DNA of 23,551 nucleotides from positions 1-23,551 of the IMG/VR virus record IMGVR_UViG_3300023119_000128, one strand, 5' to 3'. The translations under genes and the position numbers were made by a program. Below the pieces are notes generated by a model. The model did not search any database, was not told the DNA's origin, and saw only the letters and a list, made by a program, of their open reading frames with translations. This document shows positions 15,887 through 23,551 of this stretch, piece by piece (positions within the stretch are counted from its first letter, which is position 1; each line of letters begins with the position of its first letter). The DNA comes from a virus.

Positions 15887-16582
15887 CTAATTGAATGATA
15901 GTTTTTGGTTTGTGGTCGCAAAGTTTGACTTTCTCATAACTGTCTTTGCAACCAAGTCAAGTTCCTTACCATCCCACTTTAGGACGAAAGGCATATTTAT
16001 ATCAGTTTGCATATCGTTTAGAACCGCTTCTGCGTCTGGCCCCAATTGTGCAATTTTCTTACCATGCATCTTACGAGATTGCTTAAACATCCGTATAAGC
16101 TCTGACACAGTAATCTGTTTCTTGTTTCTCGCATCGTTCACCCTATCTAGGAAGTGTCGAGTAAACTCAACATCAATCCCTACGCTTTTATATAGTCTAT
16201 CAGCATAAACTTCTACTGCATCCAAATCTTTCTTTGTCAATGGAGCATCACCAGCAGCAGCGTTCAAATCTGCCATTGGTTGATATGTTCCGAAAGGAAC
16301 ACCAGAGTATGACTGTTCATAAATTTGTTTGAAGGATTTACTTTCATTCGCAACACCTACACGAGTATGTTGTTTTTCCTTCTTATACTTCTTCATCATC
16401 TTCTTGGTTTGATCTGGTGTTTCAGTTCCAGTAATTTCATCTGGAACAGACTTTTCTAAAGCATCAACATCACCATCAACATCTAAATCTTTAGATGCAA
16501 ATGCATGATACATCATATGTTTCAATCCTAGTTTTGGATTGTCGTGATGATGGATTTCTAAAAATTTCTTAAATGTTTTCAT
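15887..16582 (-). CDS. Conserved virion-type protein with capsid-targeting-like N-terminus
   Basis: The 231-residue protein begins MKTFKKFLEIHHHDNPKLGL; the MKTFxxF start resembles the T4 internal-head-protein capsid-targeting peptide (T4 IPIII begins MKTYQEFIAEA). The C-terminal domain (about 135-225) is compact: EFTRHFLDRVNDARNKKQIT, then ELIRMFKQSRKMHG and FVLKWDGKELDLVAKTVMRK, a helix-plus-beta fold with conserved-looking His/Asp/Arg. I do not recognise this domain; an RNA-binding or nuclease-like fold is only a guess. It could be an injected or internal capsid protein. It overlaps the structural gene upstream by one base. Confidence 0.75.
   Translation of the reverse strand: MKTFKKFLEIHHHDNPKLGLKHMMYHAFASKDLDVDGDVDALEKSVPDEITGTETPDQTKKMMKKYKKEKQHTRVGVANESKSFKQIYEQSYSGVPFGTYQPMADLNAAAGDAPLTKKDLDAVEVYADRLYKSVGIDVEFTRHFLDRVNDARNKKQITVSELIRMFKQSRKMHGKKIAQLGPDAEAVLNDMQTDINMPFVLKWDGKELDLVAKTVMRKSNFATTNQKLSFN
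15994..16001 (-). promoter_or_regulatory. T4-type late promoter-like TATAAATA inside CDS
   Basis: Exact TATAAATA on the minus strand (16001-15994), about 117 nt before the ATG at 15877. It could drive the small basic proteins and the spanin genes as a late unit, which fits lysis timing, but the leader is long and it lies inside a coding region. Confidence 0.35.
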
Positions 16583-18881: not shown

Positions 18882-19298
18882 TTAGACGATTCTGGCTTTA
18901 ATAAAATGTGTTCCTGCTGAAGTTTTTTCGTGCATTATTTCGATTGATAGTCCACCCTCAACCTTGTGAGAAATACCATCATCGTTCACATCGCCATTTT
19001 CGTCTTTTCCAATTCTTCCACCAAACTGTGTCAGTGGCATAGAATACGAACCACCGCTCTCTGACAAATCAAAGTTATCAAAAGAAATAGAAAGTCTTCC
19101 TAGTTTCTCTCTAAGTTTATTTAGAGCGTGTTCTGCAACTAGGTGTTCAATACCACCCAATGCGCCTAGGAAAGAATTGATTCTTTCGATAGTTTCTGGT
19201 TTGGAGAGATCATTAGAAAAGTCAGGCCCACTTGGTTGATGTCCCACATCAATGTTTGCATTGTGTGATTCATCAAGATACTTGTTAAAGGTCTTCAT
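18882..19298 (-). CDS. Virion-block protein with T4 internal-protein-like leader
   Basis: The 138-residue protein, started at the second ATG (19298; GAGG 9 nt upstream), begins MKTFNKYLDESHNANIDVGH. MKTFxxYLDE|S resembles the T4 capsid-targeting peptide MKTYQEFIAE|A, including an LxE site fitting the T4 prohead protease rule ([L/I]xE before a small residue). The mature part has mixed helix and beta (LGRLSISFDNFDLSESGGSY, then VEGGLSIEIMHEKTSAGTHF). Candidate internal head protein; the body matches nothing I know. An in-frame ATG at 19304 is possible. Confidence 0.72.
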   Translation of the reverse strand: MKTFNKYLDESHNANIDVGHQPSGPDFSNDLSKPETIERINSFLGALGGIEHLVAEHALNKLREKLGRLSISFDNFDLSESGGSYSMPLTQFGGRIGKDENGDVNDDGISHKVEGGLSIEIMHEKTSAGTHFIKARIV

Positions 19299-19446
19299 TT
19301 TCATCTTCCTCTTCTACAACTTCTTCGATTTCCTCTTCGACAACCTCTTCTACAACATTAGGGTTGACTTCTAGGATTTCTTGAAGTGCTTCTGGTTTTT
19401 TCTTTTCTGGAATGGGTTGACCATTCGCACCGTATCTAACTGTCAT
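19285..19446 (-). CDS. Small acidic protein
   Basis: The 53-residue ORF starts at 19446 with AAGGAG 7 nt upstream (the frame is open to 19497 but that part overlaps the previous gene). It reads MTVRYGANGQPIPEKKKPEA, then ends in a Glu/Val run (VVEEEIEEVVEEEDENEDL). The extreme acidic tail could mimic DNA or act as a disordered linker; no function is known. It overlaps the next gene by 14 nt. Confidence 0.65.
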   Translation of the reverse strand: MTVRYGANGQPIPEKKKPEALQEILEVNPNVVEEVVEEEIEEVVEEEDENEDL

Positions 19447-20529: not shown

Positions 20530-20537
20530 TATTTATC
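20530..20537 (-). promoter_or_regulatory. Late promoter-like GATAAATA
   Basis: Minus strand GATAAATA (20537-20530), one mismatch from the T4 late consensus TATAAATA. It overlaps the nucleotidase stop codon and lies at a good distance (32 nt) from the ATG at 20498. Context favours it; sequence alone is weak. Confidence 0.35.
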
Positions 20538-21045
20538 TAAATCCATTTCTCTTCAATTGAGCAATAGTATTAGATGGGCTCGTATGGTGAATCCCAATAC
20601 CCCCAGCGGCTTCCCATTCTTTAATATTCTTCAAATAATCATCAATCAGAATATTTGGTTTACCGTTAGTCTTTGCATATTTCTGCTTTTCTGCTCTTAA
20701 AACAAGATAAACTTTACCTTTGGGTGAGGCATTTTTCTTTAACCAAGCAGTTTTGCCTGGGCGTGAATTTCTATCCCTATTAGAATATGCAGACAAAATG
20801 TTTGCGTTGTAACGATTGATAAATTTCCACATCGTCTGAGCGCCAGGCATCCAAGGCAATGTATGCCAAAAATCTTTCTTTGACTTAATTGCTTCCCAGC
20901 GTTCTTCCTTGTCTGTAGAGACAAAGGATTTACCTGTCAATTTTTCGTAACCACCGATAAAGTCACAAAGAACCATATCCATGTCACAATAAATTTCAGG
21001 CAAATCCTCTTCGGAAATTTTTAGAAGTTCCGAAATATTTTTCAT
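20533..21045 (-). CDS. HAD-family 5'(3')-deoxyribonucleotidase-like protein
   Basis: The 170-residue protein has HAD motifs: IYCDMDMVLCDF (nucleophile D21 and D23), NILSAYS (motif II Ser near 85-88), a Lys in LRAEKQKYAK (near 120), and NILIDDYLKNIKEWE (D135, D136). The order and length match the 5'(3')-deoxyribonucleotidase branch, which removes phosphate from deoxynucleoside monophosphates. It may tune nucleotide pools alongside the RNR genes at 9491-12526, although it sits in the virion block. The preceding gene's stop shares one base with its ATG. Confidence 0.83.
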   Translation of the reverse strand: MKNISELLKISEEDLPEIYCDMDMVLCDFIGGYEKLTGKSFVSTDKEERWEAIKSKKDFWHTLPWMPGAQTMWKFINRYNANILSAYSNRDRNSRPGKTAWLKKNASPKGKVYLVLRAEKQKYAKTNGKPNILIDDYLKNIKEWEAAGGIGIHHTSPSNTIAQLKRNGFR

Positions 21046-21962
21046 TACTCACCGTCTTTATCTTCTGGACTAACTTCAATCTTATCTAGAGGTTTGCCAG
21101 TCATGGTTTTCTTGCCTTTTACTTCGTCTTCTTTTTCTTCAGACTTCTTTTTCTTTGCACCCCAATAACCTTCTTTCCACATAGAAATCGCATTTGCATA
21201 TGCAGACATCGACTCTTGCATCTGTTCGTTAGTTATTTGGATTGCCTTAGCAACAGCAGGGTCTTTAGAAAGTCCTTTTGCAATCTTTTCGATTGTAGTG
21301 ACAATCTGTGTCATGTTACCACCCTTCCAACGAGGGTCGTTAAGAACACCAAATGCCATTTTATACTGTTTTGCAGAATACTTCTCTTCAAGTTCTACTT
21401 CTTCTGCCTTTGCTCTCAACTTTTTGAGATCATCACCATCGACTTTACCGTTCTTGTTCAAGTCAATTTTCTTTTGTTTTGCAGTAAGTTCTTCAGACTT
21501 AGTTTTTGCAAAGTCAGAATACTCTTCTCTTTCTAGAACCTTGAATGATGGAGCACCTTTAGACTTCATATCCTTCATCAACTTGTCTGCATCATCTGGG
21601 AATTCGATTACGAGTTCGTCACCCTCATCGTATGCATCTTCGTAAGGCACCATGTTTCCAGCAACTTTTTGTGTAAGAACTTTGTATGCTCTTGCAGCGT
21701 CACTAGAACTTCTGAACTGTAGAACTAACAAGTCTGCTGGTTTCTCTTGAAGTTTTGCTTCTGACATATGATAACCTTTGCCATCACAATGGTCGCATCC
21801 TTCGCCTTTACACTTAGGACATTCAACCTTTTCTTCATTCTTAGGTTTTTCACCTTTTTCTTTTTTCGCAATTGCGATTGCGGCCTGTTGTGCTGGAGAA
21901 ACTGCCTCAAGAACGGCACTCTCCAGACTGCCCGCTTTTGTATCGAAATACTTCTTGGACAT
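21045..21962 (-). CDS. Virion-block protein with DnaJ-type zinc knuckle and EF-hand-like loop
   Basis: This 305-residue, Lys/Glu-rich protein combines unusual parts. Residues 48-63 (CPKCKGEGCDHCDGKG) repeat the CxxCxGxG pattern of DnaJ zinc centres (C48, C51, C56, C59). A middle domain LLVLQFRSSSDAARAYKVLT looks like a small alpha/beta fold. Residues 167-178 (DLNKNGKVDGDD) fit an EF-hand/dockerin calcium loop. A helical domain follows the acidic linker AEEVELEEK (186-194), and the C-terminus is basic. It resembles segmented virion proteins of marine T4-like phages. The linker is like those of the protein upstream, suggesting shared proteolytic processing. Confidence 0.75.
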   Translation of the reverse strand: MSKKYFDTKAGSLESAVLEAVSPAQQAAIAIAKKEKGEKPKNEEKVECPKCKGEGCDHCDGKGYHMSEAKLQEKPADLLVLQFRSSSDAARAYKVLTQKVAGNMVPYEDAYDEGDELVIEFPDDADKLMKDMKSKGAPSFKVLEREEYSDFAKTKSEELTAKQKKIDLNKNGKVDGDDLKKLRAKAEEVELEEKYSAKQYKMAFGVLNDPRWKGGNMTQIVTTIEKIAKGLSKDPAVAKAIQITNEQMQESMSAYANAISMWKEGYWGAKKKKSEEKEDEVKGKKTMTGKPLDKIEVSPEDKDGE

Positions 21963-21963
21963 A

Positions 21964-23551
21964 TTATTCTCCTTTTCTCATTTTTTCAATTTCGGATGCC
22001 CGATTGATTTTGTTTATTGTCTCTTGTGCCTTTGCAATTTGCAACTGCAATTGAGCAATTCTTGTTTTCTTTTGATCTTCCTTACCTTGATCGACTTTCT
22101 TTGCCTGATCGTTGGCAGGGGTTTCTTCTTCTTTGAGTTGAGACTTATCTACTTTATCACCAATACTTTGTGCAGTTTTAAGTCTTGCCATTTTTAGTGG
22201 TGCAACATCTTTGAATCTCTTTTCAAGACTTTTGCGATCCAACCTCAAATCTCTCTCATCACTGCCCATTGAATAGATTTTCATATCTGTTCCAACAAGA
22301 GCATATTTCATCTTTGGTGCTTCGTCTAGTTCAGTTTCTTCTGCAACAGAACGAATATAGTCTGCAATCTTGGCAACTGGTGCATTAGGATATGCCTTGA
22401 TTGCACCAGCAAGTTCCTTCTTCACCATTGATTCTGCCTCTTTAGGATTGTTACCTTTCTTAACCAAATATGCAACAACCTTCTTTGCGTCTACTGCCTC
22501 TTCAACAGATTCTAGTTTACCACCAGCATCTGTAAACGCAGCGATTGCCATGTTCTTCTTCTCTTCATCAGACTTACCTTTGAACTGTGGTGCGTCTGAT
22601 TTCTTGAAGTCATCAATCCATGCACCCAAACCATCAGAGACTTTTAGTTTCTCTTCTAGTGGTTGGGAAGGCCACTGGATAGGTTCTACACCTTCTTCCA
22701 CTGACTCTGGAACAACTCGCAGTTTACCAGCAACATACAAAGGATGATCTTTCATCGCCTTCTGTGCATCTTCTTCATCGTTTGAGTCAACAGAGATGAT
22801 ATACTTACCACCCTTCTGTGCAACCTTATGTCTAATCTTACCAAGTGCTTCTTTTGCCTGATAGGTAACTAGTTTGAGGTTCAACATTGCCTCTTCTAGT
22901 TCAACTTCTTCTTTGATACCAAGACGCTTCATATGTTTCTTTACAATATCCCTCGCATCACCGTTTGGATTCTTCTTACCAGCAACATACAAGTCATCAA
23001 ACAACTCATCATCACCAATAAGTGCATAGAGTTTGTCTGAAGCATCATCACCTTCTTTGCCAAGTTTAATTGGTTTAGACATAAGTTTTTTCAAAGCATC
23101 TTTTGCCTTTGGTGAATCTGGAAGAGCCCATGTTCCTTCTTTAATGTCATCAATAGATGCACCCATATCTCCGATAGCAAATGTTACCTTACCATCTCTC
23201 TTGTATAGGAACTTCTTAACTGAACCTTCATTACCTTTTGTTGCAAGAGTAATCTTTTCAACTCTTCCCTTGTTTACCACATTCTTTGATTTCACAACAT
23301 AATCAACAAAGTCTGTTCCCTTGCTGATTGTAGAACTGGTTTTGAGTTTGATAGTGTCACCCTTCTTCATCTTGTCAAATGCACGAACCAACTTAGGGTC
23401 ATCCATCTTTAATTCATCAAGATCAAGTTCCTCTTTAACACTTTCCACATTACTATGGTCAATATTTGCATGAAGTCCTTTCATCTGTTCATGTGTGCCA
23501 GAAAGTTTATTCTGCATCCACTCTGGAAATTCACCACCACCTTGAATGTGT
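21964..23551 (-). CDS. Large segmented acidic protein, candidate processed virion protein (5' end outside window)
   Basis: At least 528 residues. The first in-window ATG is at 23517, but the frame stays open to the edge, encoding ...HIQGGGEFPEWMQNKLSGTHE, so the real start is probably outside. The protein is a string of small domains separated by acidic linkers: ESVKEELDLDEL (25-36, numbered from 23517), IKEEVELEEA (201-210), PLEEK (286-290), ESVEEAV (336-342) and AEETELDEA (392-400). LEE|A and LDE|A match the T4 prohead-protease rule. The C-terminus is a Gln/Lys coiled coil (ARIAQLQLQ-type). One segment resembles a PDZ-free alpha/beta fold (KYIISVDSNDEEDAQKAMKD). Likely a virion or prohead-core protein. 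Confidence 0.75.
   Translation of the reverse strand, partial: HIQGGGEFPEWMQNKLSGTHEQMKGLHANIDHSNVESVKEELDLDELKMDDPKLVRAFDKMKKGDTIKLKTSSTISKGTDFVDYVVKSKNVVNKGRVEKITLATKGNEGSVKKFLYKRDGKVTFAIGDMGASIDDIKEGTWALPDSPKAKDALKKLMSKPIKLGKEGDDASDKLYALIGDDELFDDLYVAGKKNPNGDARDIVKKHMKRLGIKEEVELEEAMLNLKLVTYQAKEALGKIRHKVAQKGGKYIISVDSNDEEDAQKAMKDHPLYVAGKLRVVPESVEEGVEPIQWPSQPLEEKLKVSDGLGAWIDDFKKSDAPQFKGKSDEEKKNMAIAAFTDAGGKLESVEEAVDAKKVVAYLVKKGNNPKEAESMVKKELAGAIKAYPNAPVAKIADYIRSVAEETELDEAPKMKYALVGTDMKIYSMGSDERDLRLDRKSLEKRFKDVAPLKMARLKTAQSIGDKVDKSQLKEEETPANDQAKKVDQGKEDQKKTRIAQLQLQIAKAQETINKINRASEIEKMRKGE

Follow-up and report, generated by a model that had tools for sequence, protein, structure and literature searches.

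A shuffled beads-on-a-string protein of Melnitz-like phages as a probable precursor of internal head proteins

Introduction

In phage T4, the head protease gp21 cuts its substrates after [LI]xE, and the capsid-targeting leader (CTS) is about 10 residues long; a D at CTS position 10 blocks processing. Core proteins, gp22 and gp67 among them, are also split by gp21 into several fragments that are mostly removed from the head (PMC9026906). The T4 internal proteins IPI, IPII and IPIII, as well as Alt, carry an N-terminal capsid-targeting leader ending in [LI]xE, are cut by gp21 and are packaged in the core. In the giant phage SPN3US, the precursors gp53 and gp54 are each cut several times after xxE, with head or ejection proteins as products (PMC10052503), and the polyvalent proteins of phages and plasmids carry many domains per packaged chain and show strong domain shuffling (PMC5512222). 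T4-like cyanophages are reported to be devoid of gp67, gp68 and alt (PMC2984593). Kinases, NMNAT-like enzymes and other proteins recur in cyanophage virions with no stated route of entry; our literature search on capsid targeting and cyanophages returned the T4 review alone. Nor did we find described, in the T4 literature, a single precursor giving many small head proteins through cut sites that permit shuffling.

Here we analyse a phage protein built of small predicted domains ("beads") joined by acidic linkers. The T4 internal proteins have one mature domain per gene, whereas this protein carries 6-8 exchangeable domains per chain. It shares with T4 gp67, gp68 and gp22 several LxE sites per chain, and in some relatives the position of gp68, but those proteins are without its modular bead architecture. 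Like SPN3US gp53 and gp54 it would be a precursor with multiple xxE sites; in SPN3US, however, cleavage falls mainly on the propeptide, and a single mature protein is left. Polyvalent proteins differ in that their domains are typically catalytic and that they often have their own peptidase within the chain, whereas the small beads score above the Pfam cut-off for no family and would be cut by gp21 in trans. We estimate a probability of about 0.7 that the product of the gene is a precursor of internal head (prohead core) proteins, targeted to the capsid and cut by gp21 at its [LI]xE linkers into small proteins.

The gene and its locus

The window, that is, the whole stretch of DNA analysed, is a virus fragment of 23,551 nucleotides (23.5 kb) from a T4-type marine phage, Melnitz-like and of the Kyanoviridae. 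The bead-protein gene lies on its minus strand and is open at the window edge (Table 1), so that the 592-aa protein is represented in the window by its 3'-terminal 528 codons. Complete 592-aa copies, 100% identical across the window part, are found in two other contigs (L003 and L004) and begin with MTRYSTTMRDLLEQVRAREDNLLKPLTE↓AKTV (the arrow denotes a candidate cut). The part outside the window comprises 64 codons and one further candidate site, LTE↓A. An ATG at 23517 was ruled out as the start, since the two complete copies extend 64 codons further 5'.

The gene order of the locus (NMNAT-like protein, bead protein, second modular protein, deoxynucleotidase, small proteins, primase gp61, NrdA, NrdB) is that of Methylophilales phage Melnitz (Kyanoviridae). 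The bead-protein gene is here downstream of the NMNAT-like gene and not between portal and gp21.

Two other proteins of the window deserve mention. The second modular protein contains a zinc segment of the DnaJ type, CPKCKGEGCDHCDGKGYH, and a loop resembling an EF-hand, DLNKNGKVDGDDL; a DKDIDNDGDVD loop is also present in Melnitz gp21 (locus tag _21) and in other proteins, and metal-binding beads therefore seem common in this system. The protein encoded at 15887-16582 has the N-terminus MKTFKKFLEIHH and, further inside, a second leader-like sequence, KSFKQIYE↓QSYSG. In other phages the gene begins at this second part (MKSFKQIYE↓QSYSY), so that the upstream piece was seemingly fused onto it.

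Table 1. Features of the bead-protein locus in the window; arrows mark candidate cut bonds.
Feature	Position	Strand	Remarks
Modular (beads-on-a-string) protein, 3' 528 codons of 592-aa ORF	21964..23550	-	true start outside window
Bead 1, C-terminal part, helical, HIQGGGEFPEWMQNKLSGTHEQMKGLHANID	23458..23550	-	helices in AlphaFold2 model; conserved in L005, L006, L021, L042
Candidate site ESVKEELDLDE↓L	bond 23413/23412	-	
Bead 2 (LKMDDPKL...DDIKE), after LDLDE↓L	23137..23412	-	mostly beta in model; Melnitz gp20 85% identical; [LI]xE in front in 12/12 copies
Bead 3 (GTWALPDS...) with linker EEVELEE, after DDIKE↓G	22891..23136	-	[LI]xE in front in 9/9 copies
Linker EEVELEE↓A, candidate gp21 site	22888..22911	-	E↓A bond 22891/22890
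Bead 4 (AMLNLKLV...) with linker ending PLEE, after VELEE↓A	22651..22890	-	from homologue comparison and AlphaFold2 model
Bead 5 (KLKVSDGLGAWIDDF...), after PLEE↓K	22498..22650	-	[LI]xE in front in 10/11 copies
Linker ESVEE↓A	bond 22498/22497	-	VxE, not LxE
Bead 6 (AVDAKKVVAYLVKKG...), after SVEE↓A (VxE)	22321..22497	-	phrog_9411 E 2.8e-6; phrog_7322 C-terminus E 1.3e-5
Linker (A)EETELDE↓A, candidate gp21 site	22318..22341	-	bond 22321/22320
Bead 7 (APKMKYALVGTDMKIYSMGSDERD...), after ELDE↓A	22129..22320	-	[LI]xE in front in 11/11 copies
Conserved C-terminal helix (KKTRIAQLQLQIAKAQETINK...)	21967..22128	-	model helix 551-589, pLDDT about 80-90; conserved in most full-length homologues
Further [LI]xE sites	DDIKE↓G 23137; PLEE↓K 22651; QLKE↓E 22129	-	
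Second modular protein of the locus	21045..21962	-	EEVELEE↓KYSAKQYKMAF, then GFSPKEIK-family bead; CxxCxG zinc-type segment; EF-hand-like loop
5'-Deoxyribonucleotidase-like enzyme	20533..21045	-	leader MKNISELLKISE↓E; most homologues have [LI]xE at the equivalent place
Protein with T4-CTS-like leader MKMKTFNKYLDE↓S	18882..19304	-	leader kept in relatives: MKTFNKYLAE↓K, MKNFKNHIAE↓E

Beads and linkers

Acidic linkers separate the segments of the protein where a first-pass annotation of the sequence had placed them. That annotation named two cut sites, LEE↓A and LDE↓A; both fit as gp21-type candidates, but the window part contains seven [LI]xE sites rather than two. The small residue that was expected after the cut is not required, K, E, M and L also following candidate sites. 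Within this single protein the number of [LI]xE sites is not above chance (7 vs 6.0 in shuffles, p = 0.40), whereas the linker consensus ExVxLxE is (2 vs 0.04 in shuffles, p = 0.0014). The significance of [LI]xE comes from the homologues, through its co-location with breakpoints, local shuffles of acidic windows and its conservation before beads (see below).

AlphaFold2 modelling of the full 592-aa protein, with 37 aligned fragments, gave a mean pLDDT of 64 and a pTM of 0.27, pointing to no fixed domain arrangement. Compact beads, mostly with pLDDT of about 60-90, are separated by low-confidence stretches, and most linkers score below 50. The model thus predicts small domains joined by disordered linkers, in line with the beads-on-a-string description of the first pass. 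Of the nine [LI]xE sites in the full protein, six lie at most 3 residues from a stretch with pLDDT <50 (30% of positions expected); EEVELEE↓A, one of the three exceptions, falls in a low-confidence predicted helix.

No Pfam family scored above cut-off in any bead (weak matches, among them L21e, ACT and EF-hand, were set aside), no family named for gp67/gp68 or the T4 internal proteins matched in Pfam or PHROG, and a PDB sequence search with the bead protein gave nothing significant. The model had no match with E < 0.001 in a fold search of the PDB; against BFVD, one unnamed protein matched with E 4.3e-4 (TM 0.15), and there was a local match with a protein of Klebsiella phage KP15, which pointed us to the Straboviridae. 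Under the thresholds applied, no named phage yielded a relative of bead 3 or bead 7. Bead 5 has a homologue in P-TIM68 gp159 and forms a stand-alone 56-aa gene in two contigs (L047 and L048). Bead 7 occurs as an 88% identical copy in L034, and also in L025-L031 and L033, its gene lying between portal and gp21.

Module shuffling and conserved junctions

A scan of viral contigs for the bead protein yielded 46 loci, of which 38 non-redundant proteins entered the breakpoint analysis. Across about 40 relatives the beads are reshuffled, gained, lost or present as stand-alone genes, and their order and number vary. The motif [LI]xE↓[ASGMT] coincides with the ends of ungapped homology at 70/283 starts and 53/279 ends (22 expected in each case). 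For [LI]xE itself the counts at homology breakpoints are 120/283 starts (45 expected) and 108/279 ends (43 expected), with z of 7-12, values that are upper limits because the linkers are related to each other and not independent. The controls [LI]xD and [LI]xK are depleted at breakpoints, and reversed motifs are neutral.

In a scan of residue pairs at the junction spacing, E.E came ahead, with L.E second and I.E fourth of 317. Since E..E is enriched at junctions as strongly as L.E, part of the signal reflects general acidity, and we therefore reshuffled residues within acidic windows as a control. [LI]xE[AGSM] still stood out (18/75 vs 3.3; z = 8.8, likewise an upper limit), [LI]xD was low, and acidic windows of other Melnitz and S-CREM2 proteins contained no excess of [LI]xE[AGSM].

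In eight bead families, [LI]xE directly precedes the bead in 67 of the 70 listed occurrences, and E in 70/70, figures that describe conservation and are not an independent test, since we drew up the bead patterns with the sequences already in view. Residues further upstream vary by locus: LEE, LTE, IAE and LYE, all of them [LI]xE, occur before one and the same bead. Three of the listed junctions have no L or I at P3 (VEE at window bead 6, VTE in L044, MDE in Melnitz), and some in the upstream NMNAT protein have no LxE. The 56-aa stand-alone gene reads MSVISFKLYE↓KLSVSDGVGAWIKDF and its polyprotein counterpart ELTE↓KLKVSDGLGAWIDDF, so that the same cut point follows a different leader, the stand-alone copy having a CTS-like one of its own (SFKLYE↓KLSVSDG vs ELTE↓KLKVSDG). 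The mature product of the stand-alone and the chained bead would have an identical start residue. A DUF5824-type bead similarly keeps its cut point and its predicted mature start behind different leaders: QYISE↓NTEGL in a stand-alone gene (L023), QLDE↓KIEGL in Melnitz gp18 and DLEE↓GPDGI in C48C1.

One alternative is that the linkers do no more than space the beads, as flexible acidic stretches, or favour recombination, as short DNA repeats, and that the protein is never cut. Their strong acidity and the enrichment of E..E fit this idea, as does the fact that identical linker peptides share on average 19.2/21 bases; synonymous codons vary among them, a variation that runs against DNA-level repeats but is not in itself discriminating. 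The excess of [LI]xE[AGSM] over composition-keeping shuffles, the deficit of [LI]xD, the lack of any excess in unrelated acidic stretches, and the retention of [LI]xE where the peptides before one bead differ make this explanation improbable in our view. At module junctions, [LI]xE is conserved in homologues by all three measures (breakpoints, acidic-window shuffles and bead junctions), as expected of a gp21 substrate; a lack of such conservation was one of the outcomes that the first-pass annotation had named as refuting its reading.

Head protease and capsid-targeting leaders

A gp21-type (S77) protease, which the first-pass annotation had proposed to look for, is encoded by Melnitz and C48C1, and also on two contigs where the bead-protein gene lies close by; the 23.5-kb window has no gp21 gene and no PF03420 match, the fragment being too short. 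An LxE↓A sequence sits where it would be expected in the capsid proteins of these phages, as FLSE↓A for Melnitz, LHE↓A for L026, LLAE↓A for L033 and LLTE↓A for S-CREM2, and FLSE↓A, LHE↓A and LEE↓A occur in capsid proteins or scaffolds of the gp21-bearing relatives.

In seven contigs (L025-L031) the bead-protein gene directly follows the portal gene and a small ORF resembling gp67; in those that extend further (L025-L028), a 118-aa ORF, gp21, gp22 and gp23 come next. In two others (L033 and L034) it lies between portal and gp21. Compared with the T4 order 20-67-68-21-22-23, the bead protein occupies the gp68 position in two lineages; whereas cyanophages are reported to lack gp67 and gp68 (PMC2984593), a positional analogue is present here.

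The bead protein in L033 starts with MKTFKQLIAE↓V, and T4 IPII and IPIII start with MKTYQEFIAE↓A. The leader of the window protein, MTRYSTTMRDLLEQV...PLTE↓A, is conserved but departs from the canonical MKxFxxFL form. CTS-like leaders also occur on homologues of the proteins encoded next to the bead protein in the window type of locus, including a DUF6267 protein (MIDFSNFLAE↓D), the NMNAT-like protein (MKKFSEIRE↓ARGD) and others. In Melnitz, they are found on 6/17 genes of the cluster as compared to 11/188 other genes (p = 0.0009); when E is replaced by D or Q in the pattern, none of the cluster genes match, and with K one does. DUF6267 proteins (L001 10542-11798; L004 1721-2962; Pfam E 2.8e-108) contain KWDGAPAIFAG, similar to the KxDG motif of ligases and capping enzymes, and a DUF6267 protein behind a leader of the MIDFSNFLAE↓D type is possibly a packaged nucleotidyltransferase.

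The gp68 position beside gp21 also suits a different role, in which the bead protein would serve as scaffold or core in the manner of T4 gp68, gp67 or gp22 and would be cut by gp21 for exit from the head, making room for DNA, with beads that are not cargo. The fate of T4 gp22 and gp67 described above is a precedent, and core chains of the gp22/gp67/gp68 type in T4 have several LxE sites each. The beads, however, vary widely, have predicted folds, can be exchanged and in some cases form single genes with a leader of their own, which fits cargo better, and we regard the scaffold role as rather unlikely.

Virion proteomes of cyanophages

The virion proteome of cyanophage S-CREM2 comprises 52 proteins, including gp154, gp155, gp156 and the modular gp160 of the syntenic cluster, the last detected by mass spectrometry in purified virions with 7 unique peptides (PMC10665884). 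S-CREM2 gp154 is a cytidylyltransferase with the leader MKNFSSFLTE↓A, of the T4 internal-protein kind like that in L033. The linkers of gp160 end in LSE↓A, LEE↓K and ISE↓G, and it has beads in common with P-TIM68 gp159. Each of the four S-CREM2 proteins whose leader fits MK.[FL]..FL.E (SAM hydrolase gp6, gp13, kinase gp14 and gp154) was detected in virions, for which the chance is about 0.006 given 52/187 proteins, with a pattern that was picked after gp154 was seen. N-terminal [LI]xE↓[ASG] does not mark S-CREM2 virion proteins (3/52 virion vs 7/135), and a broader CTS pattern is weak (p = 0.12). The leaders of the SAM hydrolase (MKDFDSFLEE), gp13 (MKDLHSFLTE) and the kinase (MKRFDAFLTE; L058 3837-5081 and 10310-12846) are CTS-like, and a shared leader of this type would explain the presence of these proteins in S-CREM2 virions.

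The occurrence of gp160 in purified virions, taken with the diversity and exchangeability of the beads and their occurrence as single genes, leads us to favour cargo over a core or scaffold role. A tail, baseplate or non-virion protein, with another cause for the LxE resemblance, would suit the window-type locus, which lies outside the head gene cluster among replication genes; moreover, the S-CREM2 authors caution that some detected proteins may be lysate carry-over (PMC10665884). We consider such a protein very improbable, as beads are in common with a protein encoded beside gp21, CTS-like leaders occur in the cluster, and virions of other phages contain a citidylyltransferase (S-SM1, PMC3037559) or NMNAT-like proteins (several others, PMC9602691).

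As a separate observation, a segment of S-CREM2 gp160 (L057 10343-11236), IKE↓EMMAAGATGFTGAAAPEGPVAGYDPLMG, resembles the N-terminal arm of mature gp23 after LLTE↓APTQAVGADGFTGAAAPGGPNAGFDPVMIG (L057 482-1852), and could possibly be a capsid-arm mimic or a recruited fragment.

A proposed precursor of internal head proteins

That reshuffled beads keep a cut site directly in front suggests several internal head proteins from one precursor. In the model we propose, a short N-terminal leader, acting like the 10-residue CTS of T4, would bring the chain into the prohead core; gp21 would cut after [LI]xE in the disordered acidic linkers inside the head; and the products would be the freed leader and 6-8 small folded proteins, each about 50-90 residues long. 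With its own cut site on each, a bead could be gained, lost, swapped or split off harmlessly, and the locus would evolve as a cassette for small head-resident proteins. The grounds for this proposal are read from sequences: modularity, LxE at junctions, beads shared with a protein at the gp68 position, neighbours with CTS-like leaders, and syntenic virion proteins in another phage. We infer from these the cleavage, the copy number and the roles of single beads. The first-pass reading, a polyprotein whose segments would be released inside the head, is supported in part, by the modular chain, its conserved candidate LxE sites, gp21 in relatives and the syntenic cyanophage virion proteins; injection of the beads is speculative.

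Relatives in Straboviridae

In Straboviridae, bead 6 has relatives of about 50% identity, with LNE↓A or IDE↓A in front. The protein in question (RB16p185, JC03 QVW27348 and the KP15 homologue of Pseudotevenvirus and Slopekvirus) shares with the window protein LxE linkers and, as its third bead, a homologue of bead 6, but has only three beads. Its leader is of the form MKSFKELLSE↓S in Cronobacter phage JC03 and E. coli phage RB16, and LKKFKEFLTE↓G in Klebsiella phage Miro; in all three phages there are three beads, with linkers ending in LDE↓A or MDE↓A, and in LNE↓A. RB43 and leN are without the third bead and its linker, and leE has an additional free-standing copy of the bead (53 aa). In a diverged Phynn protein, the sequence and length of the linker differ and its end is still IDE↓A.

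A broader and more tentative idea, to which we give somewhat less than even odds, is that T4-type marine phages and some enterobacterial phages share a plug-in system for head cargo, in which a capsid-targeted polyprotein of interchangeable beads, each with its own gp21 site, would supply a phage-specific set of small proteins for ejection along with the DNA and action on the host, with beads also occurring as single genes with their own leader. A rule of capsid-targeting leader plus LxE would explain virion proteins such as the kinases and NMNAT-like enzymes of cyanophages, predict which uncharacterised proteins of abundant marine phages are packaged, and give exact predicted N-termini for dozens of marine-phage proteins.

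The CTS-like protein of Straboviridae is encoded between gp3 and gp2 (L066 1201-1809, L067 1201-1809, L068 1201-1986, L069 1201-2025), and RB16, with the third bead, and RB43, without it, form a natural pair.
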